Source: an uncultured Gemmiger sp. | GTDB lineage: Bacteria > Bacillota > Clostridia > Oscillospirales > Ruminococcaceae | Length of the DNA stretch: 40,192 nt | Assembly (NCBI GenBank): GCA_949295035.1 | Contig: CASFJO010000006.1 | Span: 1 to 40,192 of the forward strand | Direction: 5' to 3' | Shown: positions 14,012 to 27,527 of the stretch, one piece after another | Layout: every line of letters begins with the position of its first letter | How positions within the stretch are numbered: position 1 is the stretch's first letter | Program-made: the position numbers and the translations under genes | Notes under the pieces: generated by a model | Told to the model about the DNA's origin: nothing | Database searches by the model: none | What the model saw: only the letters and a program-made list of their open reading frames with translations

Positions 14012-14060
14012 AAAAACCGCGGCCCCCGCGTCGGAATCACCGATGCGGGGGCCGCGGTTT
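14012..14060. terminator. Two-way terminator between the HAD gene and the ion-pump operon
   Basis: Sixteen-base arms (14014-14029 and 14045-14060; AAACCGCGGCCCCCGC and its complement) flank a 15-base loop. It closes both the plus-strand trio and the minus-strand ten-gene operon. Confidence 0.85.
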
Positions 14061-14082: not shown

Positions 14083-16038
14083 TCAAAGGAAGAGCAGATA
14101 CACCAGGATGGATACCAGGCCCAGACCAAACAGCATCAGCCCGAAGGACAGGCTGGAGGTGAAACTGGGCATCCGGCAGTTATGGGGTTCATAGGCGCAG
14201 AAGGTATCGTCGCTGCGGGGGGTGATGGTGGGGGTAGCACGCCACATCAGCACGCCGTTGCACAGGGCGATAAACCACTCCATGATGCTGCCCGCCACAC
14301 GGGCGATCAGCGCGCCAAGGAACGGCAACAGCCCCAGCACCAGCGGCCGGTAGACCTTTTCTTCCAGGTCCAGCCAGCGGGGCAGGCGGTAGCGGTACTC
14401 ATTGCCGGTAAAGACCAGACCGCGCACCACCAGAAGGTAGACCACCGCACCAATGATGAGGCTGATGGCGGCGCCCTGCAGGTTTGTCAGGGAGAAGTAG
14501 GCAACGGTGTGCTCCGGGCCTTCGCTGCCGAAGAAACTCTGGCTCAAAGCAGCCACCTTGTCCATGGTGTAGTGGGGCAGAACACCCAGCACCAGCATGG
14601 GCAGCGCGCTCACCGCCACCACCACGGTGGCCAGCTTGCTCATGTAATGGCCGTTCAGCGCGTCAAATTCCGCCTGACGGGTGGGGTGCTTGCATACAAA
14701 GAGGGTCACGAACAGCTTGGTCATGTAAGCCACGGTCAGGCCGCCCGAAGCCAGAAAGACCCACTCGATCCCGTGGAAAAGCCCGGCGTTCTGCCCGGCG
14801 GTCTCCAGCACCCCGATGTACTCCACGATGCTCTCGTGCAGCAGGGTCTTGCTGATGTAGCCGCTGAAGCCCGGCACGCCGCCGATGCCCAGCGCCCCCA
14901 GCAGGAAGGCGATCATCAGCACCGGCTTGCCGCGGCCAAAACCGCGCACATCGTTCAGGCTGACCGCATGCAGGTTCATCACCACCACGCCGGCCACAAG
15001 GAACAGACACAGCTTGATGAGGGAGTGGTTCATCACATGCAGCACGCTGCCCCAAACGGCCATACCTTTCTCCTCGCCCAGCAGGCCCTGCATGCCGGCA
15101 CCCACCAGGATAAAGCCGATCTGGCTCATGGAGGAGTAGGCCAGAGTGCGCTTGAGTTCGGTGCTGAACAGCGCCAGCAGCGCGCCCACCACCATGGTGG
15201 CCACCGCGAACAGCAGCACGGCCAGACCCCAGCCCGCGTCATGCAGGAACAGCTGGCCGCTCAGCGCGAACAGACCGAAGATGCCGGCCTTGGTGATGAT
15301 GCCGCTGAGCAGGGCCGTGGCGGGGGTGGGCGCCTCGGTATAGGCGCCCGGCAGCCAGGTGTGCACCAGGAACACGCAGGACTTGGCGGCAAAACCGCCC
15401 GCCGTGAAAGCGCCGGCCACATACAGCAGCCGCTTGTCGGAAAGGGCGGCGGCCGCGGCGGCCAGTTCGCTGATGGTCAGGGTACCCAGCTGCTGATAGA
15501 GCAGGAACAGCCCCATCAGGGTGGACAGGCCGCCCAGGATGGCGAAGGCCAGGTAGCTGTCCGCGGCGCGTACGGCCGCGGCGGTCTCGCTCTGAGCTAC
15601 CAGCGCCCAGCTGGACAGGCTCATGATCTCAAAGAACACCAGGGTGGTGTACAGATCGGCCGACAGGAACACACCCAGAGTGCTGCCCAGGGTAAAGAGC
15701 AGGAACAGGTAATAGCGGTTGTTCCGGGCCTTGCCGGCCAGGTATTCCGGGGTGAACAGGGTGGTCATCATCCAGAGGAACCCGGCCAGGCAGCAGAGCA
15801 CCAGCCGCAGACCGTCCAGCTGGAAACTGAGCCCCAGCCCCAGCACACCGGGCAGGCTCAGCGCGCCACCCACACACTGGCTCAGGGCCAGGCAGCCCAC
15901 GAATACCAGCACGCTGCTCAGCTGGGCCAGCCGGTCGCCGGCCACACAGCCGCCGCGCCCCACCGCCCAGCAGACGATGCCCGCCGCGAAGGGGAACAGC
16001 ACCAGAAAGAAGCACAGGATCGCAAACATATTGCTCAT
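14083..16038 (-). CDS. NuoL/MrpA-like antiporter subunit (fourth in the operon)
   Basis: The 651-residue polytopic protein is the longest of four proton/sodium-translocating antiporter-type subunits here. Signature segments of the Proton_antipo_M family are present: LVFFEIMSLSSWALVA with the TM5-type Glu, AAKSCVFLVHTWLPGAYTEAPTPATALLSGIITKAG with the channel Lys/His pairs, STELKRTLAYSSMSQIGF, and HSLIKLCLFLVAG. Beyond about residue 500 it continues for roughly 150 residues with further helices and a polar loop (NGVLMWRATPTITPRSDD), ending in a final helix, VSILVYLLFL. ATG 16038 follows AAAGGAGGAGG at 7-8 bases. It is the last gene before the terminator at 14012-14060. Confidence 0.8.
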   Translation of the reverse strand: MSNMFAILCFFLVLFPFAAGIVCWAVGRGGCVAGDRLAQLSSVLVFVGCLALSQCVGGALSLPGVLGLGLSFQLDGLRLVLCCLAGFLWMMTTLFTPEYLAGKARNNRYYLFLLFTLGSTLGVFLSADLYTTLVFFEIMSLSSWALVAQSETAAAVRAADSYLAFAILGGLSTLMGLFLLYQQLGTLTISELAAAAAALSDKRLLYVAGAFTAGGFAAKSCVFLVHTWLPGAYTEAPTPATALLSGIITKAGIFGLFALSGQLFLHDAGWGLAVLLFAVATMVVGALLALFSTELKRTLAYSSMSQIGFILVGAGMQGLLGEEKGMAVWGSVLHVMNHSLIKLCLFLVAGVVVMNLHAVSLNDVRGFGRGKPVLMIAFLLGALGIGGVPGFSGYISKTLLHESIVEYIGVLETAGQNAGLFHGIEWVFLASGGLTVAYMTKLFVTLFVCKHPTRQAEFDALNGHYMSKLATVVVAVSALPMLVLGVLPHYTMDKVAALSQSFFGSEGPEHTVAYFSLTNLQGAAISLIIGAVVYLLVVRGLVFTGNEYRYRLPRWLDLEEKVYRPLVLGLLPFLGALIARVAGSIMEWFIALCNGVLMWRATPTITPRSDDTFCAYEPHNCRMPSFTSSLSFGLMLFGLGLVSILVYLLFL

Positions 16039-16057
16039 AACAGCGCCTCCTCCTTTC

Positions 16058-17533
16058 TTATACAAGGCCCGCGGCCACGCGGGTCAGAAGGGTATACAGC
16101 CAGCCGGAGCCAAGGCCCAGGGCCAGCACCAGCACGCAGAGGACCAGCAGACTGCCGATCATCCGCCAACCCGGATCGGTAACGCTCAGGGCCCATTCCG
16201 GCTCCTGATAGTCCTTCCGGGGGAAGAAAGCGGTCACCACCACGCCCATCTGGTACAGGCCGGTAAGCAGGGCACTGATCATCAGTGCCGCCACGCCCGC
16301 CCAGGCAAGCGGGTTGTCGTACATGGCCGCATGGGAGGCAATGGCCCACTTGCTGGCAAAGCCGGGCAGGATGGGCAGACCGATCAGGCCCATGCTGGCG
16401 AAGGTGAACACGCCGAAGGTGATGGGCATCCGCTTGCCCAGCCCCTCATACTCAAAGATATACTCCTTGTGGTGGGTCTGGCAGAGCAGTGCGCCCGCGC
16501 AGAAGAACAGGATGATCTTGACGAAGCTGTGCACCACCATGTGGCAAAGCGCCGCGGCCAGACCGCCGGGGCTCATGAGGGTGGCGCCGAACAGGATGTA
16601 GGACAGGTTGCTCACGGTGGAGTAGGCCAGCCGGCGCTTCAGATGCTGCAGCCGCAGAGCCATGGCGCTGCCGTAGACGATGGTGATCGCGGCAAAGGCC
16701 ATCACCAGATACTGGGCCCAGCTGCCCTGCAGCAAGCCGGTGCCGTAGCTGTAGTAGGTCAGGCGCAGGATCGCAAAGACGCCCGCGTTGACCACCGCCA
16801 CGGCGTGCAGCAGCGCGGTGACCGGGGTGGGGGCCACGCCGGCGCTGGGCAGCCAGCCGTGCAGCGGCCAGATGGCCGCCTTGACGCCGAAGCCGAAGAA
16901 GCCCAGCACGAAGGCCGTGCGCAGCAGGTTTTCGTTACCTACCGTCAGGATGGCGGACAGGCTGCCGCCCAGCACAAAGTCCAGGCTGCCGTACTGCAGC
17001 AGGAAGATCATCGAGATGAAGGCCAGCGCGGCGCCGCTCATGGAGTAGGCAAGGTATTTCTTGCCGGCAAAGCGGCCCTGGCCGTCCATCTCGTGCATGA
17101 CCAGCGGCAGGGTACACAGGGTCAGCAGCTCGTAGAACAGGTAGAGGGTAAAGGCGTTGGCCGCAAAGGCAATGCCCAGCACCACACCGTAGGTCATGGT
17201 AAAGAAGGCAAAAAACCGGTTCTCACCGTGTTCATGCCGCATGTACTCAAAGCTGTACAGCACCGCCAGAGGCCAAAGCACCGCCACGATGGCGGCAAAT
17301 ACCAGGCTCAGCCCGTCCAGCCGCAGCGCCAGCTGCACGTTGCCCATGTCCAGCACCAAAGCGGTGCCGTCCGGGCGGTTCCACAGCAGCACCGCCACCA
17401 GGATGCTGGTGGCACAGGTGAACAGCTGCACATACACTTCCCGCTGCTTGGTGTTCTGCGCGGGCAGCACGAACATCGCCGCACCGCCCAGGATCGGCAG
17501 CAGCACAGGCAGCAAAAGCATCATGGGTTCCAT
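16058..17533 (-). CDS. NuoL/MrpA-like antiporter subunit (third)
   Basis: The product is 491 residues with about 14 predicted membrane helices. It keeps YLFYELLTLCTLPLVMHE with the TM5-type Glu, GVKAAIWPLHGWLPSAGVAPTPVTALLHAVAVVNAGV, LKRRLAYSTVSNLSYILFG and HSFVKIILFFCAGALL, all typical of ion-pumping subunits of complex I and Mrp antiporters. The central segment has AVAVVNAG, where paralogues at 14083 and 17549 have GIITKAG or GVITKGG, so it lacks that Lys and resembles NuoL more. Start ATG 17533 follows AAGGAGG at 10 bases. It sits 15 bases from the gene before it and 19 from the one after. Confidence 0.8.
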   Translation of the reverse strand: MEPMMLLLPVLLPILGGAAMFVLPAQNTKQREVYVQLFTCATSILVAVLLWNRPDGTALVLDMGNVQLALRLDGLSLVFAAIVAVLWPLAVLYSFEYMRHEHGENRFFAFFTMTYGVVLGIAFAANAFTLYLFYELLTLCTLPLVMHEMDGQGRFAGKKYLAYSMSGAALAFISMIFLLQYGSLDFVLGGSLSAILTVGNENLLRTAFVLGFFGFGVKAAIWPLHGWLPSAGVAPTPVTALLHAVAVVNAGVFAILRLTYYSYGTGLLQGSWAQYLVMAFAAITIVYGSAMALRLQHLKRRLAYSTVSNLSYILFGATLMSPGGLAAALCHMVVHSFVKIILFFCAGALLCQTHHKEYIFEYEGLGKRMPITFGVFTFASMGLIGLPILPGFASKWAIASHAAMYDNPLAWAGVAALMISALLTGLYQMGVVVTAFFPRKDYQEPEWALSVTDPGWRMIGSLLVLCVLVLALGLGSGWLYTLLTRVAAGLV

Positions 17534-17548
17534 ATCTGTGCCACCTCC

Positions 17549-19009
17549 TTACAGAATCGCGGCGGCCAACCCGCCGATCACGGAAACAAGCCCGGTGGGC
17601 CACACACCCAGCACCACCAGCGCAGCCGCCAGCACCGCCAGCGGCAGCTTCATGGTCCAGCGGGGCTTTTCCGCCAGAACTTCCTCCTGGTATTCCGCAC
17701 CGGGGAAGAAGGCATCCCGCACCACGCCCAGCAGATAGCCGGCGGTGAGCAGGGCGCTGATCAGCAGCACGCCCGCGCCCAGGGACCCGCCCAGAACGCC
17801 CAGCTGCTCAAGGCCGCCCTGGGCCAGATACCATTTGCTCACAAAACCGCCCAGCGGGGGAATGCCCACCAGGGACAGACCCGCCAGCGCGAAGCACCAC
17901 ATCACCCAGGGCATCTGCCGGCCCACGCCCCGGAACTCGTCTACGCGGGTGTGATGGGTGTAGTGGATCAGCGCGCCGGCGCAGAGGAACAGACACACCT
18001 TGGCCAGCGCGTGGAAGACTACCTGCAGCAGCGCGCCGGTCAGCCCCGCATCGCAGAACAGGAACAAACCAAACAGTACATAGCTCACCTGGCTCACGGT
18101 GGAGTAGGCCAGCCGCCGCTTGAGCAGCTGCTCTTTATAGGCCAGCATGCTGCCCATAAAGATGGTGCACAGCGCCAGCACCAGCAGGGTGGTCTGCACC
18201 CAGGTGCCACGCAGGAACTCGGTGCCGAACACATAGTAGGCCACCCGGATGATACCCAGCACGCCGCCCTTGGTGATCACGCCGCTCAGCACCGCCGAGG
18301 CCGGGGCCGGAGCCTCCGGATGGGCGATGGGCAGCCAGGCGTGCAGAGGCAGCAGGCCGGCTTTGCCGGCAAAGCCCAGCAGCATGCAGAAGGCCGCTGC
18401 CAGCGCCAGACCAGTGTGGCCGCTCAGGGCCAGGAAGTTCAGGCTGCCGCCCGCCACAAAGTCCAGGCTGGAGCAGAACCGGTCGGCAAACACAAAGCCG
18501 AACAGCGCCAGGCTGGCGCCAAACAGGGAGTAGCCCAGGTAGGTGAAGGCCGCCCGGCGCGCCTTGTCGGTGCCCTCATGCAGCACCATGGGCATGCTCA
18601 GGAAGGTCATGAGTTCGTAGAACAGATAGAAGGTGAACAGGTTCGCAGAGAAGGCCAGGCCCTCCAGCGCGAACAGGGTCAGCAGATAGAAAGCGTGATA
18701 CCGGCGGGGATGTTCGTCCCCGCTCAGGTACTCAAAGCCGAAGATCCCGGCGGCACAGAACATGGCCGCGGTGATCACGGCGAAGAATTTGCCCATCCCG
18801 TCCGCCAGCAGGGCGACCTCAAATCCGCCCACCGAGAACAGTACCAGCGTGCCGCTGCATTTCCAGGCGGCCAGCGCGGTGCAGGCAAACTCCACCACGA
18901 ACAGCGCGCCCAGCAGCTGCGCGCGCTCCCGTGCCTCCCGCATAAAAGGCACAAAGCAGGTCCCGACCAGCGGCAGCAGGATGGGGATCAGCAGATACCA
19001 GGTCATCAT
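17549..19009 (-). CDS. NuoL/MrpA-like antiporter subunit (second)
   Basis: The product is about 486 residues. It has the Proton_antipo_M core: YLFYELMTFLSMPMVLHE, GKAGLLPLHAWLPIAHPEAPAPASAVLSGVITKGG, LKRRLAYSTVSQVSYVLFG and HALAKVCLFLCAGALI. FEYLSGDEHPRRYHAFY before the first Glu motif is like NuoL/MrpA. ATG triplets stand at 19015, 19009 and 19006; 19009 is chosen because GGGGG then lies 7 bases upstream. It resembles the gene at 16058 in size and motif order, so the two probably arose by duplication within the operon. Confidence 0.8.
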   Translation of the reverse strand: MMTWYLLIPILLPLVGTCFVPFMREARERAQLLGALFVVEFACTALAAWKCSGTLVLFSVGGFEVALLADGMGKFFAVITAAMFCAAGIFGFEYLSGDEHPRRYHAFYLLTLFALEGLAFSANLFTFYLFYELMTFLSMPMVLHEGTDKARRAAFTYLGYSLFGASLALFGFVFADRFCSSLDFVAGGSLNFLALSGHTGLALAAAFCMLLGFAGKAGLLPLHAWLPIAHPEAPAPASAVLSGVITKGGVLGIIRVAYYVFGTEFLRGTWVQTTLLVLALCTIFMGSMLAYKEQLLKRRLAYSTVSQVSYVLFGLFLFCDAGLTGALLQVVFHALAKVCLFLCAGALIHYTHHTRVDEFRGVGRQMPWVMWCFALAGLSLVGIPPLGGFVSKWYLAQGGLEQLGVLGGSLGAGVLLISALLTAGYLLGVVRDAFFPGAEYQEEVLAEKPRWTMKLPLAVLAAALVVLGVWPTGLVSVIGGLAAAIL

Positions 19010-19025
19010 GCACATACCCCCTCTC

Positions 19026-20531
19026 TCACAGCAGCGCCAGGCCGGCGCTGATCACGTCCACCACCGGGCGGTAGCATACGCCCAGCAGGATCACGCCGAC
19101 GCCCAGCACCAGAACGCTCACCACCAGCGCGGGATCGGCCCGGCGCACCCGCGGTTCGATGCCGATCTCCTGGCAGGTGCTGCCGGAAGACCAGATCTGC
19201 ACGATGGCCGGGATGTAGTACATGGCGTTCAGCACGCTGCTGACCGCCAGCACAGCCAGAGCGGCCGCGGTCTGCCAGGCGGCCAGGGTAGCGCCCTGGG
19301 CCAGATACAGCTTGGTCACAAAGCCGGCCAGCAGGGGAATGCCCACCATAGACAGGCCGCCCACGGTGAAGCCGATGCCTGCCAGCTTGCAGCGGCGGCC
19401 GGCGCCGCGCAGGTAGTACCACTTCTTTTCATGGCCGGCGGTAGAGCTCAAAGCGCCCACCGACACGAACAGCAGCGGCTTGGTAAAGGCGTGGGCGATG
19501 ATCTGGAACACGGCCGCCACAACGCCCGCCTCAATGCCCAGGCCCAGGCCCAGGTAGATATAGCCGATCTGGGCCACCGAGGAGTAGGCCACCATCCGCT
19601 TGGAGTGGCCTTCCTGCAGCGCCTTGACGCTGCCCATGATCATGGCCAGCGCGCCCAGAACGAACAGCACGTTGGTGATCTTCAGACTGCGCATCTCGCT
19701 GATGCTGAAGACGCGGTAGAAGATCTTGATCAGCAGCACGATATAGCCCTTCAGAACCAGGCCGGACAGAATGGCGCTGGACGCGGTGGTGGAACTGCCA
19801 TGGGCGTCCGGCAGCCAGCTGTGGAAGGGGAACAGGGCGCTCTTGATGGAAAGACCCAGCACCATCAGGCCGACCAGCACGGTCAGGGGCTCGGTATACA
19901 GGCCGCTGACGAACAGCGCGTGGATGCTCTCGCCCAGCTGGGGCATGAGCAGGTGGCCGGTGATGGCGTAGAGCAGCGCCAGGCTGATCAGGAACAGACC
20001 GCTGCCCAGCAGGCTCATCACCAGGTACCGCATGGTGGCCACCAGGGTCTGGTTGTTGTCCTTGGCCATGACGATGGCGCAGGCGGCGATGGTGTTGATC
20101 TCGATAAAGACGTAGCCGGTAAAGATATCGTTGGTGTACAGCATGCTCAAAAGGCTCGCCAGCAGCATGTCCATCATGACGAAGTACAGGTTCTGCTTGC
20201 CGGGCAGGATATCCTCAAAGATGTCCTTGAGGCCGCCCAGCAGGCTGCATGCCATGACGATACAGAACACCAGCGCCAGTCCCGCCTCCAGCGGGCCGGC
20301 CCGCAGCTCGTTGCCCCAGGGAGAGGGGAACTTGCCCATGGCGTACACAAAGTAAATATTCTGGCTGGCGGTCTGGTACAGCAGCCAGGCGCTGGCGGCG
20401 CCGATGACGGTCAGGGCCGCGATCGAGATGCGCAGCGCCCATTTGCCGCTGTGCAGGATGCTGGTGGTGATGCCGGAGAGCATCGCCAGAAAAATGCACA
20501 GAAAGGGAAGATTTTCGTAAAAAGGCCGCAT
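19026..20531 (-). CDS. mrpD: MrpD-like antiporter subunit (first antiporter-type subunit)
   Basis: The product is 501 residues. Its position after MrpC and its sequence point to MrpD/MbhH: FIEINTIAACAIVMA with the key Glu, LSIKSALFPFHSWLPDAHGSSTTASSAILSGLVLKGYIVLL with the channel Lys residues, SKRMVAYSSVAQIGYIYLG, and HAFTKPLLFVSVGAL. In Mrp complexes MrpD carries one of the ion paths. The ATG at 20531 follows GGAGGAGG at about 8 bases; a GTG six bases earlier would overlap the MrpC stop. The gene leads straight on from mrpC. Confidence 0.82.
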   Translation of the reverse strand: MRPFYENLPFLCIFLAMLSGITTSILHSGKWALRISIAALTVIGAASAWLLYQTASQNIYFVYAMGKFPSPWGNELRAGPLEAGLALVFCIVMACSLLGGLKDIFEDILPGKQNLYFVMMDMLLASLLSMLYTNDIFTGYVFIEINTIAACAIVMAKDNNQTLVATMRYLVMSLLGSGLFLISLALLYAITGHLLMPQLGESIHALFVSGLYTEPLTVLVGLMVLGLSIKSALFPFHSWLPDAHGSSTTASSAILSGLVLKGYIVLLIKIFYRVFSISEMRSLKITNVLFVLGALAMIMGSVKALQEGHSKRMVAYSSVAQIGYIYLGLGLGIEAGVVAAVFQIIAHAFTKPLLFVSVGALSSTAGHEKKWYYLRGAGRRCKLAGIGFTVGGLSMVGIPLLAGFVTKLYLAQGATLAAWQTAAALAVLAVSSVLNAMYYIPAIVQIWSSGSTCQEIGIEPRVRRADPALVVSVLVLGVGVILLGVCYRPVVDVISAGLALL

Positions 20532-20533
20532 CG

Positions 20534-20923
20534 TCACACCTCCTCCCGCTTGGCCAGAATGATGATCTCATCCAGGTTCAAAGTATGGTATTTCTTGTAC
20601 AGCCGCTGGGTGAGCGCCAGGCTGAAAGCGGTGACGCTCACGCCCACCACGATGCCGGTCAGCACCAGACCGGTGGGCAGCGGGTTGATGTAGGTCTCCA
20701 TGTGGACAGGGGCGGTGGGGTCGGCCACAATGGGGGCGACCCGGCCGTCAATGTAGCCGAAGCTGGTCAGAAACAGGTAGACCGAACTGTCCATGATGTT
20801 CAGACCGATGATCTTTTTGATCAGGTTCTTGTGCAGCAGCAGGCTGATAAAGCCGATGCCGAACAAAATGATGGCGAATACCTGGTAGTAGTCGCCGGAC
20901 CAGGTGGCGATCGCGTTGCTCAT
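20534..20923 (-). CDS. mrpC: MrpC/NuoK-like subunit
   Basis: The product is 129 residues with three membrane helices (about residues 12-30, 40-58 and 80-103), as in NuoK, MrpC and MbhG. LLHKNLIKKIIGLNIMDSSVYLFL matches the conserved second-helix region, and DPTAPVHMETYINPLPTGLVLTGIVVGVSVTAFSLAL is the family's signature loop and third helix. The ATG at 20923 has GGGGGAAC upstream, overlapping the end of the preceding gene. In Mrp/Mbh complexes this subunit links the antiporter subunits to MrpA C-terminal-type helices. Confidence 0.88.
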   Translation of the reverse strand: MSNAIATWSGDYYQVFAIILFGIGFISLLLHKNLIKKIIGLNIMDSSVYLFLTSFGYIDGRVAPIVADPTAPVHMETYINPLPTGLVLTGIVVGVSVTAFSLALTQRLYKKYHTLNLDEIIILAKREEV

Positions 20924-20924
20924 G

Positions 20925-21827
20925 TTACAGTTCCCCCTTGCTGAAGAATGCGTAGAAGGCGTACATGGTGCATGCCACCTCAAGGCCCACCGCCACGTTG
21001 ATGGGCATGATGACGCCGGCGCTGAAGATCATGCCGGGGATGCCGGTGCCGATGATGCTGTGCAGGCCGTTGGCGCCGGTAAAGAACACATAGATCATGG
21101 TGAAGCCGTAGAAGTAGAGGGCGGCCACCTTGATGAAGTGGTACACATGCTCGCTCATAAAGCGGCGCACCTTGTCGCCGAAGGCGTTCTCAAACAAAAT
21201 CAGGCCCGCGCCCAGAATGGCGCCGCCGGAGAAGCCGCCGCCGGGGGACAGGTGGCCGTTCAGCAGCACATACACGCCGAACAGCATGATCACCGGCATC
21301 AGCAGGCGCACCACGCTGCGCAGCACAGTGGTGTTTTCCTCGCTCTCGATCTCGGCGTCCTCAGCCCGCTCGGCCAGATCGTACTCAGTGGTGTTTTTCT
21401 CGTCCTTGCGCAGCAGGATCATCACGCAGGTGGCAGCCAGAAACAGCACGCAGCTCTCGCCAAAGGTATCAAAACCACGGTAGACCAGAATGATGTTGCT
21501 GATCAGGTTGGTGGCGCCTACCTCCTCGATGCCCTTTTCCACATAGCGCTGCATGACCTCGTTCTCGGTGGGGTTGCCCGCGCCGCCAAAGGTGGGCAGA
21601 AACAGCACCGTCAGCAGCAGAGTGCCAGTGAATACCAGGCACATCACCACCGAAAAGGCGTGGTACAGCCGAAGCTCATTCTTTTCGCTGAGGACCCGGT
21701 TCATGATACCGGGCAGACGCGGCCGCGCGGCGCGCCTTTCTTCCGGGGTCACCACAGGCTCGTCATTTTCGACGCCATTGACCCAGGCGGCAAATCGCCG
21801 CCATTGTTCCTTAATGTTTTTCGTCAT
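20925..21827 (-). CDS. MbhE-MrpB fusion subunit
   Basis: The 300-residue protein joins two units that are usually separate. After a cytoplasmic head of about 55 residues, the first part (about 55-140) has two helices and IEEVGATNLISNIILVYRGFDTFGESCVL, which matches MbhE or the last part of MrpA. An acidic linker (about 140-165) follows. Residues from about 168 are the MnhB domain: SVVRLLMPVIMLFGVYVLLNGHLSPGGGFSGGAILGAGLIL and four helices. In standard Mrp, the MbhE-like part is the tail of the giant MrpA and MrpB is its own gene. The ATG at 21827 overlaps the previous gene by 17 bases. Confidence 0.8.
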   Translation of the reverse strand: MTKNIKEQWRRFAAWVNGVENDEPVVTPEERRAARPRLPGIMNRVLSEKNELRLYHAFSVVMCLVFTGTLLLTVLFLPTFGGAGNPTENEVMQRYVEKGIEEVGATNLISNIILVYRGFDTFGESCVLFLAATCVMILLRKDEKNTTEYDLAERAEDAEIESEENTTVLRSVVRLLMPVIMLFGVYVLLNGHLSPGGGFSGGAILGAGLILFENAFGDKVRRFMSEHVYHFIKVAALYFYGFTMIYVFFTGANGLHSIIGTGIPGMIFSAGVIMPINVAVGLEVACTMYAFYAFFSKGEL

Positions 21828-22083
21828 GGCCTTTATCGAACCTCGTTCCTTTCAAAGCGTGGATGGTCTTGAGGGTCAGCAGGAACAGCACGGTGTCCAC
21901 ACCGGCGCCCACAGCGGCCTCGGTGATGGCCAGGTCCGGCGCCTGCAGCAGCAGCCAGATCATGCTCATCATCAGGCTGAAAGCCATATAGATCAACAGG
22001 GTGTTCAGCAGGTTCTTGGCCAGCGAGGCGCTCACGGCGCAGACCACCAGCCCAACCAGCAGCAGGATGGTAAACAGTTCCAT
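21811..22083 (-). CDS. MbhD-like subunit (DUF4040; MrpA C-terminal module)
   Basis: The product is 90 residues with three helices. APDLAITEAAVGAGVDTVLFLLTLK (about residues 50-74) is the hallmark of the DUF4040/MbhD module, which in Bacillus-type Mrp forms part of the MrpA C terminus. Here it is a stand-alone gene, as in archaeal Mbh. ATG 22083 is preferred because GAGGTG lies about 8 bases before it; the ATG at 22089 would give a 4-nt overlap with mrpG but no spacing to that site. In Mbh and Mrp structures this module lines the central ion path next to MrpG and MrpF. Confidence 0.82.
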   Translation of the reverse strand: MELFTILLLVGLVVCAVSASLAKNLLNTLLIYMAFSLMMSMIWLLLQAPDLAITEAAVGAGVDTVLFLLTLKTIHALKGTRFDKGHDEKH

Positions 22084-22085
22084 GG

Positions 22086-22400
22086 TCATTCCACCTCGCA
22101 TTCTTCCATTACATATTCGTCGGTCAGCACCTCAACCTTGGTGGTGCGATGGGTGGCCACCGGCCCGGTGAGCCACAGGAAAGCCAGGATGCAGGCCAGT
22201 TTCAGGGTGACCCACACCGACCAGAACAGAACGGCCAGGCCCAGCATCACCAGAAAGCTGCCCAGCGTATCGCACAGGGCCGAGGCGTGCATCCGGTTCA
22301 GCACATAGCGGAACCGGTAGACCCCGATCAGCGAGATGCAAAAGACCACCAGCCCCAGGCAGACCAGTACGGAACCTATGATCGCGCGTGCCAGCATCAT
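22086..22400 (-). CDS. mrpG: MrpG/MnhG-like subunit
   Basis: The product is 104 residues with three helices. YRFRYVLNRMHASALCDTLGSFLVMLGL (about residues 27-54) is the MnhG signature. The polar acidic tail (TDEYVMEECEVE) is an addition. The double ATG at 22400 overlaps the mrpF stop by 4 nt and follows GGAGG. It is a small structural subunit of the antiporter's membrane arm. Confidence 0.88.
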   Translation of the reverse strand: MMLARAIIGSVLVCLGLVVFCISLIGVYRFRYVLNRMHASALCDTLGSFLVMLGLAVLFWSVWVTLKLACILAFLWLTGPVATHRTTKVEVLTDEYVMEECEVE

Positions 22401-22732
22401 TTCGCCTCGCCTCCTTCCGCGTCGCGCTTCTCTTTCAGATGCCGCAGCCGACCCTTGGCCCGCAGGGTGACCACCCGGCAAAGCACCAGCACCGCCAGGA
22501 AGTTCAGCAGCGCGTAGATCAGCGCGATATCCAGAATATAGCTTTCCTGCAAACCAAACGCCAGGATCGAGATGGCGCTGATGGTCAGGGTGCCGATCAC
22601 ATTCACCGCCACGACCCGGTCGGTAAAGCGGCGTCCGCGCACACCATAGACCAGGCAGCAGAGGATCAGCAGGGCGATCAGCACCAGCGCGCCGGCGCAC
22701 AGGGTATACAGAAAAGGAAATGCCTCGATCAT
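22397..22732 (-). CDS. mrpF: MrpF/MnhF-like subunit
   Basis: The product is 111 residues with three helices. RFTDRVVAVNVIGTLTISAISILAF (about residues 35-59) is the MnhF core, followed by LDIALIYALLNFLAVLVLCR. The C-terminal 25 residues are charged (KGRLRHLKEKRDAEGG) and cytoplasmic. The start overlaps the mrpE stop by 4 nt (ATGA), and its own stop overlaps mrpG in the same way, so E, F and G are translationally coupled. Confidence 0.88.
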   Translation of the reverse strand: MIEAFPFLYTLCAGALVLIALLILCCLVYGVRGRRFTDRVVAVNVIGTLTISAISILAFGLQESYILDIALIYALLNFLAVLVLCRVVTLRAKGRLRHLKEKRDAEGGEAK

Positions 22733-23205
22733 TTGCTCAACTCCTTTTCAATTTCTTTCAGCCGGGGCAAAAACGGCCCGTCCTTGGCGCCGTCGGCAAA
22801 ACTCTCATTCAGCGCATGAACGCACAGGGTGGAATCGTACATTCCCACCGTAATGGTGCCCGGGGTGATGGTGATCGAGTTTGCCAGCATGGCTTTGCAC
22901 ACGGTGCTTTCCAGATGGCTGTCAAAAAACACCAGCCGGGGCTTGAGTTCCTTCAGGCTGGGGCTCAGGATCACCCGGATCACATCCAGATTCGCCTTGA
23001 TGATCTCCTTGAACAGCAGCGCGAAATACGCCAGCAGCTTGCCGCTGAGCCGCAGCACCAGCGTTTCGTACTGCACGCTCCACCCGCAGAACCGGATCGC
23101 GAAGGTGCTCAATAAAAAACTGAGCACGATCCCGATCAGGACCAGCTCCAGGGTGATCCGCCCGTTCAGGATCAGCCACAGGGCAAACAGTCCAATCGTA
23201 AACAT
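22729..23205 (-). CDS. mrpE: MrpE/MnhE-like subunit, first gene of the operon
   Basis: The product is 158 residues, the normal length of MnhE. There are one or two N-terminal helices (LFALWLILNGRITLELVLIGIVLSF), a third around ALLFKEIIKANLDVIRVIL, and the soluble C-terminal part with SITITPGTITVGMYDSTLCVHALNE, the family signature. ATG 23205 follows GGGAGG at 9 bases. The leader contains a 12-bp hairpin (23241-23271), and the promoter carries an operator-like palindrome. Confidence 0.88.
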   Translation of the reverse strand: MFTIGLFALWLILNGRITLELVLIGIVLSFLLSTFAIRFCGWSVQYETLVLRLSGKLLAYFALLFKEIIKANLDVIRVILSPSLKELKPRLVFFDSHLESTVCKAMLANSITITPGTITVGMYDSTLCVHALNESFADGAKDGPFLPRLKEIEKELSK

Positions 23206-23240
23206 GCAACGATGCCTCCCGTCCTTCTTTCAATTGATAT

Positions 23241-23271
23241 CGTCCGGAAGGGGTCCTTTCCCTTCCGGACG
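23241..23271 (-). promoter_or_regulatory. Leader hairpin of the ion-pump operon
   Basis: CGTCCGGAAGGG and CCCTTCCGGACG pair perfectly around a 7-base loop between the promoter and mrpE. No U tract follows on either strand. It may be a 5' stabilising hairpin, a protein-binding site, or the weak terminator of the upstream peptidase gene. Confidence 0.5.
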
Positions 23272-23283
23272 AAAATCATCTTA

Positions 23284-25321: not shown

Positions 25322-26560
25322 ATGACCAAGATCGATATTTTTTCCGGTTTTCTCGGCGCGGGCAAAACCACGCTGATCAAAAAGCTGATTGCGGAGGCGT
25401 TTTCCGGCCAGAAGCTGGTACTGATCGAGAACGAGTTTGGCGAGATCGGCATTGACGGAGGTTTTCTGAAAGAGGCGGGTATTCAGATCACCGAGATGAA
25501 TTCCGGCTGCATCTGCTGCAGCCTTGTGGGGGATTTCCGCACCGCGCTGGAAAAGGTGGTGGAGACCTATCACCCTGACCGCATCCTGATCGAGCCCTCC
25601 GGCGTGGGCAAACTCAGCGACGTGACCCGCGCCGTGCAGGGGGTGGCCGATCATCTGGATGTGGAACTGAACGCCTTCGTCACGGTGGCCGACGTGAACA
25701 AGGTCAAACTGTATATGAAGAATTTCGGCGAGTTCTACAACGACCAGATCGAGCACGCCGGCACCATCCTGCTGAGCCGTACCGGCAGCGCCGACCCGGC
25801 CAAGGTAGAGGCGGCCGCCGCGATGCTGCGGGAGAAAAACCCCGGCGCCACCATCGTGACCACCGATTGGGATCAGCTCACCGGTGCTCAGATCCTGGAG
25901 GCCATGGAGGGCCGGCCCAGCCTGAGCCAGCAGCTGCTGGCTCAGGTGGAGCAGGAGGAGCACGAACACCATCACGAGCATGAGGGCCACGACCACTGCG
26001 GCTGCGATCACGACCATGAGGAGCATGAGCACCATCACGAACATGAGGGCCACGACCACTGCGGCTGCGATCATGACCATGAGGAGCACGAACACCATCA
26101 CGAGCATGAGGGCCATGACCACTGCGGCTGCGATCACGACCATGAGGAGCACGAACACCATCACGAGCATGAGGGCCACGACCACTGCGGCTGCGATCAC
26201 GACCATGAGGAGCATGAGCACCATCACGACCACGGCGAGGGCTGCAGCTGCGGCTGCCACGACCACGAGCATCACCACCATCATGCCGACGAGGTGTTCA
26301 CCAGCTGGGGCAAGGAGACACCGGTGCGGTTTACCAAGACCCAGCTGGAGTTCGACCTGCAGGCGCTGGACAGCGGGGAGTTTGGCGCGGTGCTGCGGGC
26401 CAAAGGCATCCTGCCCGGCGAGGACGGGGTGTGGTACCACTTCGACTATGTTCCCGGCGAGTGGCAGGTACGCACCGGCGCGGCGGATGTTACCGGCCGT
26501 CTGTGCGTGATCGGCAGCAAGCTGGACGAGGCCGGCCTGACCCGGCTGTTCGGCGTGTAA
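25322..26560 (+). CDS. G3E (CobW/COG0523) GTPase metallochaperone with His-rich repeats
   Basis: The product is 412 residues. The N-terminal GTPase has P-loop GFLGAGKT (9-16), the metal-binding GCICC (62-66; CxCC motif) and Walker B LIEPSG. Residues 213 to about 315 form a His/Glu/Asp/Cys-rich insert: four exact-length 21-residue repeats (core HHHEHEGHDHCGCDHDH) plus a partial fifth ending CSCGCHDHEHHHHH, about 48 His in all. The CobW C-terminal domain follows (about 320-412). Members deliver or store Zn, Co or Ni and are often induced by zinc shortage. The next gene is another G3E protein 14 bases away. Confidence 0.88.
   Translation: MTKIDIFSGFLGAGKTTLIKKLIAEAFSGQKLVLIENEFGEIGIDGGFLKEAGIQITEMNSGCICCSLVGDFRTALEKVVETYHPDRILIEPSGVGKLSDVTRAVQGVADHLDVELNAFVTVADVNKVKLYMKNFGEFYNDQIEHAGTILLSRTGSADPAKVEAAAAMLREKNPGATIVTTDWDQLTGAQILEAMEGRPSLSQQLLAQVEQEEHEHHHEHEGHDHCGCDHDHEEHEHHHEHEGHDHCGCDHDHEEHEHHHEHEGHDHCGCDHDHEEHEHHHEHEGHDHCGCDHDHEEHEHHHDHGEGCSCGCHDHEHHHHHADEVFTSWGKETPVRFTKTQLEFDLQALDSGEFGAVLRAKGILPGEDGVWYHFDYVPGEWQVRTGAADVTGRLCVIGSKLDEAGLTRLFGV
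25958..26236 (+). repeat. 63-bp tandem repeats coding for His-rich units
   Basis: Four full units start at 25958, 26021, 26084 and 26147, with a partial fifth from 26210. Units differ only at a few synonymous third positions (GAA/GAG, CAC/CAT), so the array expanded recently or is kept even by recombination. Length change would stay in frame. Confidence 0.92.
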
Positions 26561-26573
26561 GAAGGAGCGCGTC

Positions 26574-27527
26574 ATGAAAGAGATTCCTGTTTATCTGTTC
26601 GTGGGTTTTCTGGAAAGCGGCAAGACCAGTTTTATCCAGGAGACGCTGCAGGATCCCCAGTTTGACAGCGGCGACAAGACCCTGTTGCTGGTCTGTGAAG
26701 AGGGGGAAGAGGAGTACCGGCCGGAGGAATTTGCGTTCGGCGGGGTATCGGTGGAGACGATCGGAGAAAGTTCCGAGATGAACGCACCGCATCTGGAGGA
26801 ACTGGTGAAAAAGACCGGGGCCACCCGGGTGCTGGTGGAGTATAACGGCATGTGGATGATCCAGGAACTGCTGGACGCCATGCCCAGGAACTGGGTGCTG
26901 TACCAGTGCATCGCCACCGCCGACGGCACCACCTTCTCGATGTATTTTGAAAATATGCGCCAGCTGATGCTGGACAAGTTTGCCCTGTCCGAACTGCTGG
27001 TGGTCAACCGGGCGGAGGCCGTCAGGAGCGACGAGGCCCGCCAGGCGATCCACAAAGCGGTGCGCCAGGCCAGCCGCAAATGCGACATCGCCTACGAGTA
27101 CGCCGACGGAAGCGTGGAGTACGACGAGATCGAGGACCCGCTGCCCTACGACCTGGAAGCGGAGGTTGTGCAGATCGCCGACGAGGATTTCGGCGTTTTT
27201 TATCTGGACTGCAACCAGAATCCCGACCGGTACGATGGAAAGACGGTGCGTTTCACCGCCCAGGTCTGCCTGAGCCGGCGGGCAGGCCAGGGGGCGTTCG
27301 TTCCCGGCCGCTTTGCCATGACCTGCTGCGTGCAGGACATTCAGTTTGTGGGCTTTCCCTGCAAATACGACCATTGCGACCAGCTGACCGAGCGCAGCTG
27401 GATCACCCTGACCGCCCGGCTGCGGATCAAGTACCATCCGCTCTACCGGGGCGAGGGCCCGGTGCTCACCGCGCTGGAGGTCGGCCCCGCCAGGGAGCCC
27501 GACGACGATGTGGTGACCTTTAGCTGA
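26574..27527 (+). CDS. G3E-type GTPase fused to a YcgQ/TIGR03943-like domain
   Basis: The product is 317 residues. The N-terminal half is a G3E-like P-loop domain: YLFVGFLESGKTSFI with the P-loop at 11-18 and a Walker B-like VLVEYNGMW. The CxCC metal motif of the upstream protein is missing. The C-terminal part (about 185-317) has RFAMTCCVQDIQFVGFPCKY, which resembles the TCC-AD-x2-G motif region of YcgQ/TIGR03943 proteins. These usually pair with a YcgR-type permease in metal-related operons. AAGGAG precedes the ATG, 13 bases after the previous stop. A partner in metal transfer with the His-rich GTPase is inferred from adjacency and family. Confidence 0.65.
   Translation: MKEIPVYLFVGFLESGKTSFIQETLQDPQFDSGDKTLLLVCEEGEEEYRPEEFAFGGVSVETIGESSEMNAPHLEELVKKTGATRVLVEYNGMWMIQELLDAMPRNWVLYQCIATADGTTFSMYFENMRQLMLDKFALSELLVVNRAEAVRSDEARQAIHKAVRQASRKCDIAYEYADGSVEYDEIEDPLPYDLEAEVVQIADEDFGVFYLDCNQNPDRYDGKTVRFTAQVCLSRRAGQGAFVPGRFAMTCCVQDIQFVGFPCKYDHCDQLTERSWITLTARLRIKYHPLYRGEGPVLTALEVGPAREPDDDVVTFS

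Follow-up and report, generated by a model that had tools for sequence, protein, structure and literature searches.

The sequence analysed here (the window) is a stretch of 40,192 nucleotides of contig CASFJO010000006.1, from the assembly GCA_949295035.1 of an uncultured Gemmiger sp., and the object of this study is a Mrp/Mbh-like operon on its minus strand (nt 14083–23205). Ten open reading frames (ORFs) are tightly packed, neighbours either overlapping or being separated by no more than about 20 bases, in the order MrpE, MrpF, MrpG, MbhD, an MbhE-MrpB fusion, MrpC and four antiporter-like subunits of family PF00361 (labelled D1 to D4, in gene order), closed by a terminator (Table 1). Pfam matches above the cut-offs were obtained for MNHE, MrpF_PhaF, PhaG_MnhG, MbhD, MbhE plus MnhB in a single protein, Oxidored_q2 and, four times, PF00361. 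A first-pass annotation of the window had proposed a ten-gene operon with this order, four antiporter-type subunits, a terminator and no catalytic module; the Pfam matches and the terminator stem confirm it, and no catalytic module is found by Pfam among the ten parts. NCBIfam names the same families for the ten proteins; none of the matches listed reached its curated cut-off, the operon proteins being therefore diverged. In the host assembly (G000), a draft 91.8% complete, PF00361 was matched four times, every time inside the operon.

The mechanical ORF of D4 comprises 660 amino acids (aa) from a TTG codon; since the ATG at nt 16038 is preceded by AGGAGG, a length of 651 aa was taken. With D2 counted from its later ATG, the sizes of 486, 491 and 651 aa originally given for D2, D3 and D4 were recovered. 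Among solved structures, the best relative of D1 is MbsH (6u8y_H).

Table 1. Coordinates and assignments of the operon genes and of the RNA elements flanking them.
Feature	Length	Position (nt)	Strand	Assignment and remarks
MrpE (MNHE), first operon gene	158 aa	22729..23205	minus	PF01899, 95.8 bits; GGGAGG precedes the ATG
MrpF	111 aa	22397..22732	minus	PF04066, aligned to 6z16_F; Asp at D29f position, Asn at D35f position
MrpG	104 aa	22086..22400	minus	PF03334; H42g and P86g retained
MbhD-like (part of the MrpA C-terminal region)	96 aa	21811..22101	minus	PF13244; E706a retained
MbhE-MrpB fusion	300 aa	20925..21827	minus	PF20501 and PF04039; D792a and E796a retained
MrpC/NuoK/MbhG-like	129 aa from ATG	20534..20923	minus	PF00420
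D1, MrpD/MbhH/MbsH/NuoN kind	503 aa	19026..20537	minus	PF00361; orthologue clade 100/100
D2	488 aa (later ATG: 486)	17549..19015	minus	PF00361; sister of D3 in the tree
D3	491 aa	16058..17533	minus	PF00361 and NuoL-type N-terminal family PF00662; sister of D2
D4	651 aa	14083..16038	minus	C-terminal lateral helix and last membrane helix
Intrinsic terminator		14012..14057	minus	13 G-C pairs (14057-14045 with 14029-14017), then TTTTT; fold z -5.5
mrpE 5' leader hairpin		23240..23272	minus	Fold z -4.13

A public genome collection was scanned with a D3 profile, and the best 80 of at least 543 relatives make up the 80 loci referred to below, a set that leans to D3-like systems. All ten parts are present in 69 of them, the remaining 11 starting no more than 121 bases from a contig end. 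In the 69 uncut loci the operon order, read by gene end, was always preserved, with 67 plain cases; in another locus D1 is split into two pieces, and in the last one MbhD and MbhE-B form a fusion. Hosts include many Lachnospiraceae, but also Oscillospiraceae/Ruminococcaceae, Butyricicoccus and Anaerotignum; the nearest named relatives of the host assembly are Gemmiger, the D3 proteins being 93–94% identical. A survey of the gene order, which the first-pass annotation had suggested for the Oscillospiraceae, covered 98 genomes of the host family and retrieved nine with the four-subunit set, window included; the other eight display the same order with one-to-one orthologues (the set of G052 being split across two contigs), and MbhD is fused to MbhE-B in G029. 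The locus and family samples overlap, L040, L041 and L112 being contigs of G096, G006 and G082, respectively. The same order in all 69 uncut loci and in eight family genomes is far from chance.

Of 293 genomes sampled across the Clostridia, 68 have PF00361. Rows were judged by PF00361 spacing alone, with a full listing for 31 of the 35 genomes having at least three matches. Four PF00361 genes in a row were found in nine genomes (G000, G383, G157, G163, G231, G252, G287, G349 and G124, the last with its set split over contigs), and three in a row without an adjoining PF00346 gene in fifteen; three further rows of three (G208, G335, G117) adjoin PF00346. At the phylum level, the D3 profile has matches at E ≤1e-70 in 82 of 398 genomes; scores above 600 bits, each with another match alongside, were reached in G000, G252, G725 and G468. 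A pair of antiporter-like genes, one D2-like and one D4-like, lies at nt 2775–5906 of L038 (G059), where queries for E, F, G, MbhD, EB, C and D1 had no match in the 10-kb stretch; this pair may belong to another system or be a relic.

Conservation of the proton-path and cation-path residues was surveyed over the loci, with numbering and roles as given for Mrp in PMC7419157 and mapped via alignments. The Glu of transmembrane helix (TM) 5 and the Lys of TM7, TM8 and TM12 are retained wherever covered in D1 (77 loci), D2 (80 loci) and D4 (80 loci), with the only exception of the L029 D4 discussed below. As for D3, Glu-TM5, Lys-TM7, His and Lys-TM12 are found in 80/80 loci, Lys-TM8 being replaced by Asn in 12/80 and also in the window. 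On the cation side, the MbhD Glu is retained in 68/69 loci, the MbhE Asp and Glu in 69/72 (the other three not being covered), MrpF D29 in 69/69, and the His and Pro of MrpG in 68/69 and 69/69, respectively. When compared with the solved Mrp, the cation path of the window contains E706a, D792a, E796a, D29f, H42g and P86g, with Asn in place of D35f.

Phylogeny was inferred from 75 antiporter-like proteins under LG+C20, with hand-picked reference proteins. D1, D2 and D3 each formed a single clade (100/99-100), and D2 and D3 resulted sisters (99/96). D1 paired with the first subunit (100/99) and D4 formed one clade with the third subunit (100/100) of an operon on plasmid EAL2_808p of Peptoclostridium acidaminophilum (L123); a D4 group excluding Peptoclostridium had weak support (83/20), at the meeting of the long branches Pac_3 and L029_D4. 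The clade holding the D2+D3 pair (100/100) also included three middle subunits, from Peptoclostridium and from two haloarchaeal operons, as well as the first of the MrpD proteins of S. meliloti pSymA complex I; these four companions were joined among themselves only weakly (86/61). The Peptoclostridium operon shares the E-F-G-MbhD-MbhE-B-C-D order, the lack of redox genes and the MrpF Asn with the operon of the window, from which it differs by having three units, the middle one single, and by separate MbhE and MrpB. Because D1, D4 and D2+D3 match the first, third and middle Peptoclostridium subunits, the four-unit set appears to derive from a three-unit Mrp of the Peptoclostridium type by duplication of the middle subunit.

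The haloarchaeal operons, from plasmids of Halomontanus rarus (L125) and Natronorubrum daqingense (L132), are likewise stand-alone and three-unit, with the same layout, the MrpF Asn and a middle unit grouping with D2+D3. On the contrary, their third unit falls with the second S. meliloti MrpD, apart from D4, and their first unit is only weakly linked to D1. An annotated XerD recombinase gene lies near the operon on both plasmids, and these operons are perhaps mobile.

Taken together, the gene content and the conserved residues suggest that the ten genes probably encode one Mrp-type Na+(K+)/H+ antiporter that stands alone and has a proton arm of four units. MrpE, F, G, MbhD, MbhE-B and C would form the path for sodium (or potassium); D1, nearest to MbsH/MrpD, would adjoin C, and the addition of D2, D3 and D4 would bring the antiporter-like units of the proton arm to four, D2 and D3 having arisen by tandem duplication of the middle subunit in an older three-unit stand-alone Mrp. 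With no redox module, such a machine would be driven by the proton gradient, or by the sodium gradient when reversed. PMC7419157 gives the Mrp ratio, which is not fully established, as about 2 H+ in per Na+ out and explains it by the two units, in a scheme said to extend to the three or four units of complex I-like enzymes. If each unit passed one proton per cation, as in the Mrp mechanism, four working units would allow up to 4 H+ per Na+. We infer a single complex holding all four units, Na+ or K+ as the cation and a ratio of 4:1. The full proposal, of a four-unit antiporter working at about 4 H+ per Na+, originated by duplication of the middle unit and spread in gut Clostridia as a gear linking a weak proton gradient to a strong sodium one, is put forward only tentatively, as less likely than not.

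Several observations weigh against the stand-alone four-unit antiporter. Covariation over 70 rows (about 45 effective) placed C-D1 at the top among the pairs involving C, as expected, and D1-D3 at the top between subunits, but shared ancestry dominated the signal and we claim no order of the units from it. The predicted lateral helix of the window D4 (aa 567–606) comprises only about 40 residues, and the length of this helix is said to track the number of antiporter-like units (PMC7684303). The residues following the TM12 motif are 259 in the window D4 as well as in the third Peptoclostridium unit; a longer tail (280–329 residues) is present in 4/12 D4, and in the model of a Lachnospiraceae D4 the tail helices measure 35, 19 and 20 residues, partly with a predicted local distance difference test score (pLDDT) <50. 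In L029 (G075), D4 (nt 14578–16545) is without Lys-TM7, Lys-TM8 and Lys-TM12, while D1, D2 and D3 retain theirs at the positions surveyed; this is likely a dead fourth channel, and the fourth channel would therefore not always be needed. The D35 position of MrpF is Asn in 69/69 loci, in the window, in Peptoclostridium and in both haloarchaea, whereas Asp35 is reported as invariant in Mrp and important for activity (PMC7419157) and is indeed Asp in two canonical Mrp, of Ketogulonicigenium and Dinoroseobacter. Finally, the cation-binding histidines of MrpC are replaced, mostly by Ser/Thr and Tyr/Phe. The site is rather MBH-like, with Asn in 66/73 and Asp in 73/73 sequences, both standing in the window MrpC where Mrp has its cation-binding site, and the position of His40 in the A. 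flavithermus Mrp is taken by Tyr (66) or Phe (7); two canonical Mrp, surveyed likewise, were also without the MrpC histidines at the aligned columns.

The first-pass annotation had left two readings side by side, a stand-alone multi-path antiporter or a membrane arm docking a redox module encoded elsewhere, and only the former fits the evidence. Docking of a complex I-like or Ech-like module would have a precedent, as the other four-unit arms described, those of the 2M and green complex I (PMC9040806), come with a redox arm, and the incompleteness of the host draft leaves some space for it. The genome-wide searches, aimed at the NuoD, NuoB and NuoH kinds and at none of the NuoEFG/HydABC-like proteins, argue otherwise: PF00346 (NuoD/hydrogenase large subunits) was matched in 0/12 four-subunit genomes (including G000, G006, G096 and G009), PF00146 (NuoH) in 0/17 and PF01058 (NuoB) in 0/4, host included in each case, with three comparison genomes positive for PF00146 and several of the four-subunit genomes being 99–100% complete. 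The orphan redox subunits whose search had been proposed were thus not found in the host for these three families. Nor was a catalytic module just outside the operon, which would have changed the picture, recovered by queries with E. coli nuoCD, G, H, I and J (nuoB not being among the queries), which gave no match beside the 80 loci at E 1e-6; the flanks covered had median lengths of 4.2 kb upstream of mrpE (69 loci) and 7.6 kb downstream of D4 (80 loci). With the three Pfam families absent from the four-subunit genomes tested, it is unlikely that the arm docks a known redox module; a module of the NuoD, NuoB and NuoH kinds was rejected on this ground, and the idea of a complex I-like or Ech-like module elsewhere in the genome retains hardly any probability. 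Coupling of the arm to some unrelated partner, redox or otherwise soluble (Rnf, or a protein linked to ferredoxin or NADH, for instance), is also quite unlikely. PF03116 (NQR2_RnfD_RnfE) does occur in 9/9 four-subunit family genomes, but so it does in 93/98 genomes of the family, 84 of which are without the operon. Of the 63 loci with >1.5 kb upstream, 13 have a thioredoxin-like gene there (named by eye), and nuoE/F-like genes, the single match beyond the antiporter and NuoK families, were found about 6 kb downstream of D4 in L054 (nt 15663–17513), the sole case among the 80 loci. Against such a partner, the NuoH-like anchor is missing in the 17 genomes mentioned and no conserved eleventh gene was found among the 63 loci with >1.5 kb upstream and the 60 downstream, the commonest flanking clusters, an ABC-ATPase group (on either side) and a TrmB-like group (names by eye), reaching 17 loci.

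Two further alternatives concern the arm itself. The operon might encode two complexes, a Mrp/MBH-like core with D1 and a separate D2-D3-D4 complex, as a lateral helix that appears short to clamp four units could suggest. This is improbable, considering that D2-D3-D4 accompany C-D1 and the upstream genes in 69/69 uncut loci, that the three-unit operons share the layout, and that no other PF00361 gene was found in the host; distances between loci also agree across subunits (r 0.72-0.94), although shared ancestry alone could yield such values. Less easily set aside, though still somewhat unlikely, is a single stand-alone antiporter in which some units are structural or regulatory, at a ratio near 2–3 H+ per Na+. 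It overlaps the favoured antiporter, from which the ratio is its sole difference, and is in accordance with the three key lysines lost by D4 in L029 and with the Asn of D3 in TM8; the key residues of D1, D2 and D4, otherwise almost invariant, speak for four working units.

Compared with the known systems, the stand-alone antiporter proposed here shares with groups 1–3 of Mrp/Mnh/Pha (CPA3) the small subunits B, C, E, F and G, the stand-alone nature and much of the cation path. It differs in the absence of the MrpA fusion, MbhD being here a separate gene and MbhE fused to MrpB, in having four units instead of the usual two (MrpA and MrpD), and in the MrpF Asp35 to Asn change and the MBH-like MrpC site. 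Some group 3 Mrp clusters have an irregular order and two mrpD genes, and that of Aphanothece (CD1D2EFGAB) is reported as a Na+/H+ antiporter in a review (PMC5703873). With the MBH and MBS of Pyrococcus furiosus the proposed antiporter has in common the separate MbhD, the MrpC site and, for D1, MbsH as the nearest among solved structures; there, however, the membrane part carries a hydrogenase or sulfane reductase arm, and PF00346, PF01058 and PF00146 are absent in the host. MBH has one antiporter-like unit and MBS two, MbsH and MbsH' (PMC7684303), and not the one with which Mbs had initially been credited in the first-pass annotation. The same three families separate the operon from complex I (canonical, 2M and green), where a redox arm with NuoB and NuoD and a NuoH anchor is present. 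With the four-unit arms of 2M and green complex I there is in common a set of four units derived by duplication or replacement (here with D2 and D3 as sisters in the tree), and the MrpD that groups with D2+D3 is the first one in the green complex I of S. meliloti pSymA (L124). DabAB inorganic carbon transporters have a DabA partner beside the NuoL-like DabB. The dabAB genes are described as easily mistaken for nuo or mrp (PMC8305020).

A proton arm of four units is, as such, already described in complex I: PMC9040806 reports four or five antiporter-like units in rhizobial green complex I, Nitrospira 2M and Manganitrophaceae Complex_I_3, with a lengthened lateral helix in the 2M NuoL and in the Manganitrophaceae MrpD2. 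A stand-alone four-unit Mrp was not found described in the open-access literature, which is no proof of its absence in print. The closest four-unit machines described carry an electron-transfer arm, and the operon, if our reading is true, would be the redox-free counterpart of a four-unit complex I. Nature would then offer a redox-free series of two units (Mrp), three (Peptoclostridium and haloarchaea) and four (the ten-gene operon); should every unit move a single proton per cation, the ratio would step from 2 to 3 to 4, and the question of protons per unit would become testable. For complex I, it has long been asked how the antiporter-like units move their protons in step. At 4 H+ per Na+, a steep sodium gradient could be kept under a weak proton gradient or, conversely, a sodium gradient be turned into a small proton gradient, with a bearing on the balance between the two gradients in gut fermenters.

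A sodium economy in the host is plausible, but two of the traits, the PF03116 and PF03977 matches, are widespread in the family and do not point to the operon in particular. PF03977 was matched in 84/98 family genomes and in 8/9 with the four-subunit set (G075 lacks it), and PF03116 is distributed as given above; co-occurrence with Rnf or sodium decarboxylases was dropped as a clue to function, both traits being common across the family. The host also codes for a c-type ATP synthase subunit (L134, on G000:C51) with the pattern GEGN...AETTGIY, whose AETTGIY we take to be a sodium-binding signature, besides two further, longer PF00137 matches.

As for the RNA elements, two congeners inspected by eye have G-C-rich hairpins where the terminator of the operon lies, the T-run being clear in one. 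In the mrpE leader of two congeners, also by eye, a hairpin-like sequence with changed letters stands at the same place; the hairpin of the window, which matched no Rfam family, is perhaps a regulator. At gathering score, Rfam retrieved from the window one tRNA and nothing else, hence no known sodium riboswitch before the operon, and none was retrieved before the operon in 30 loci, 29 of them with at least 236 bases 5' of mrpE. Glycine riboswitch matches were seen in L055, L065, L080, L102, L109 and L110, about 2–2.7 kb before mrpE and outside the operon, two of the six being on the other strand. Nine loci have a permease-like gene upstream. Elsewhere in the window, two adjacent CobW-type GTPases are encoded on the plus strand (nt 25322–26557 and 26574–27524); the former contains tandem repeats rich in His, Asp, Glu and Cys (GHDHCGCDHDHEEHEHHHEHE), like those of metal chaperones, and the latter a DUF1980 domain at the C-terminus.

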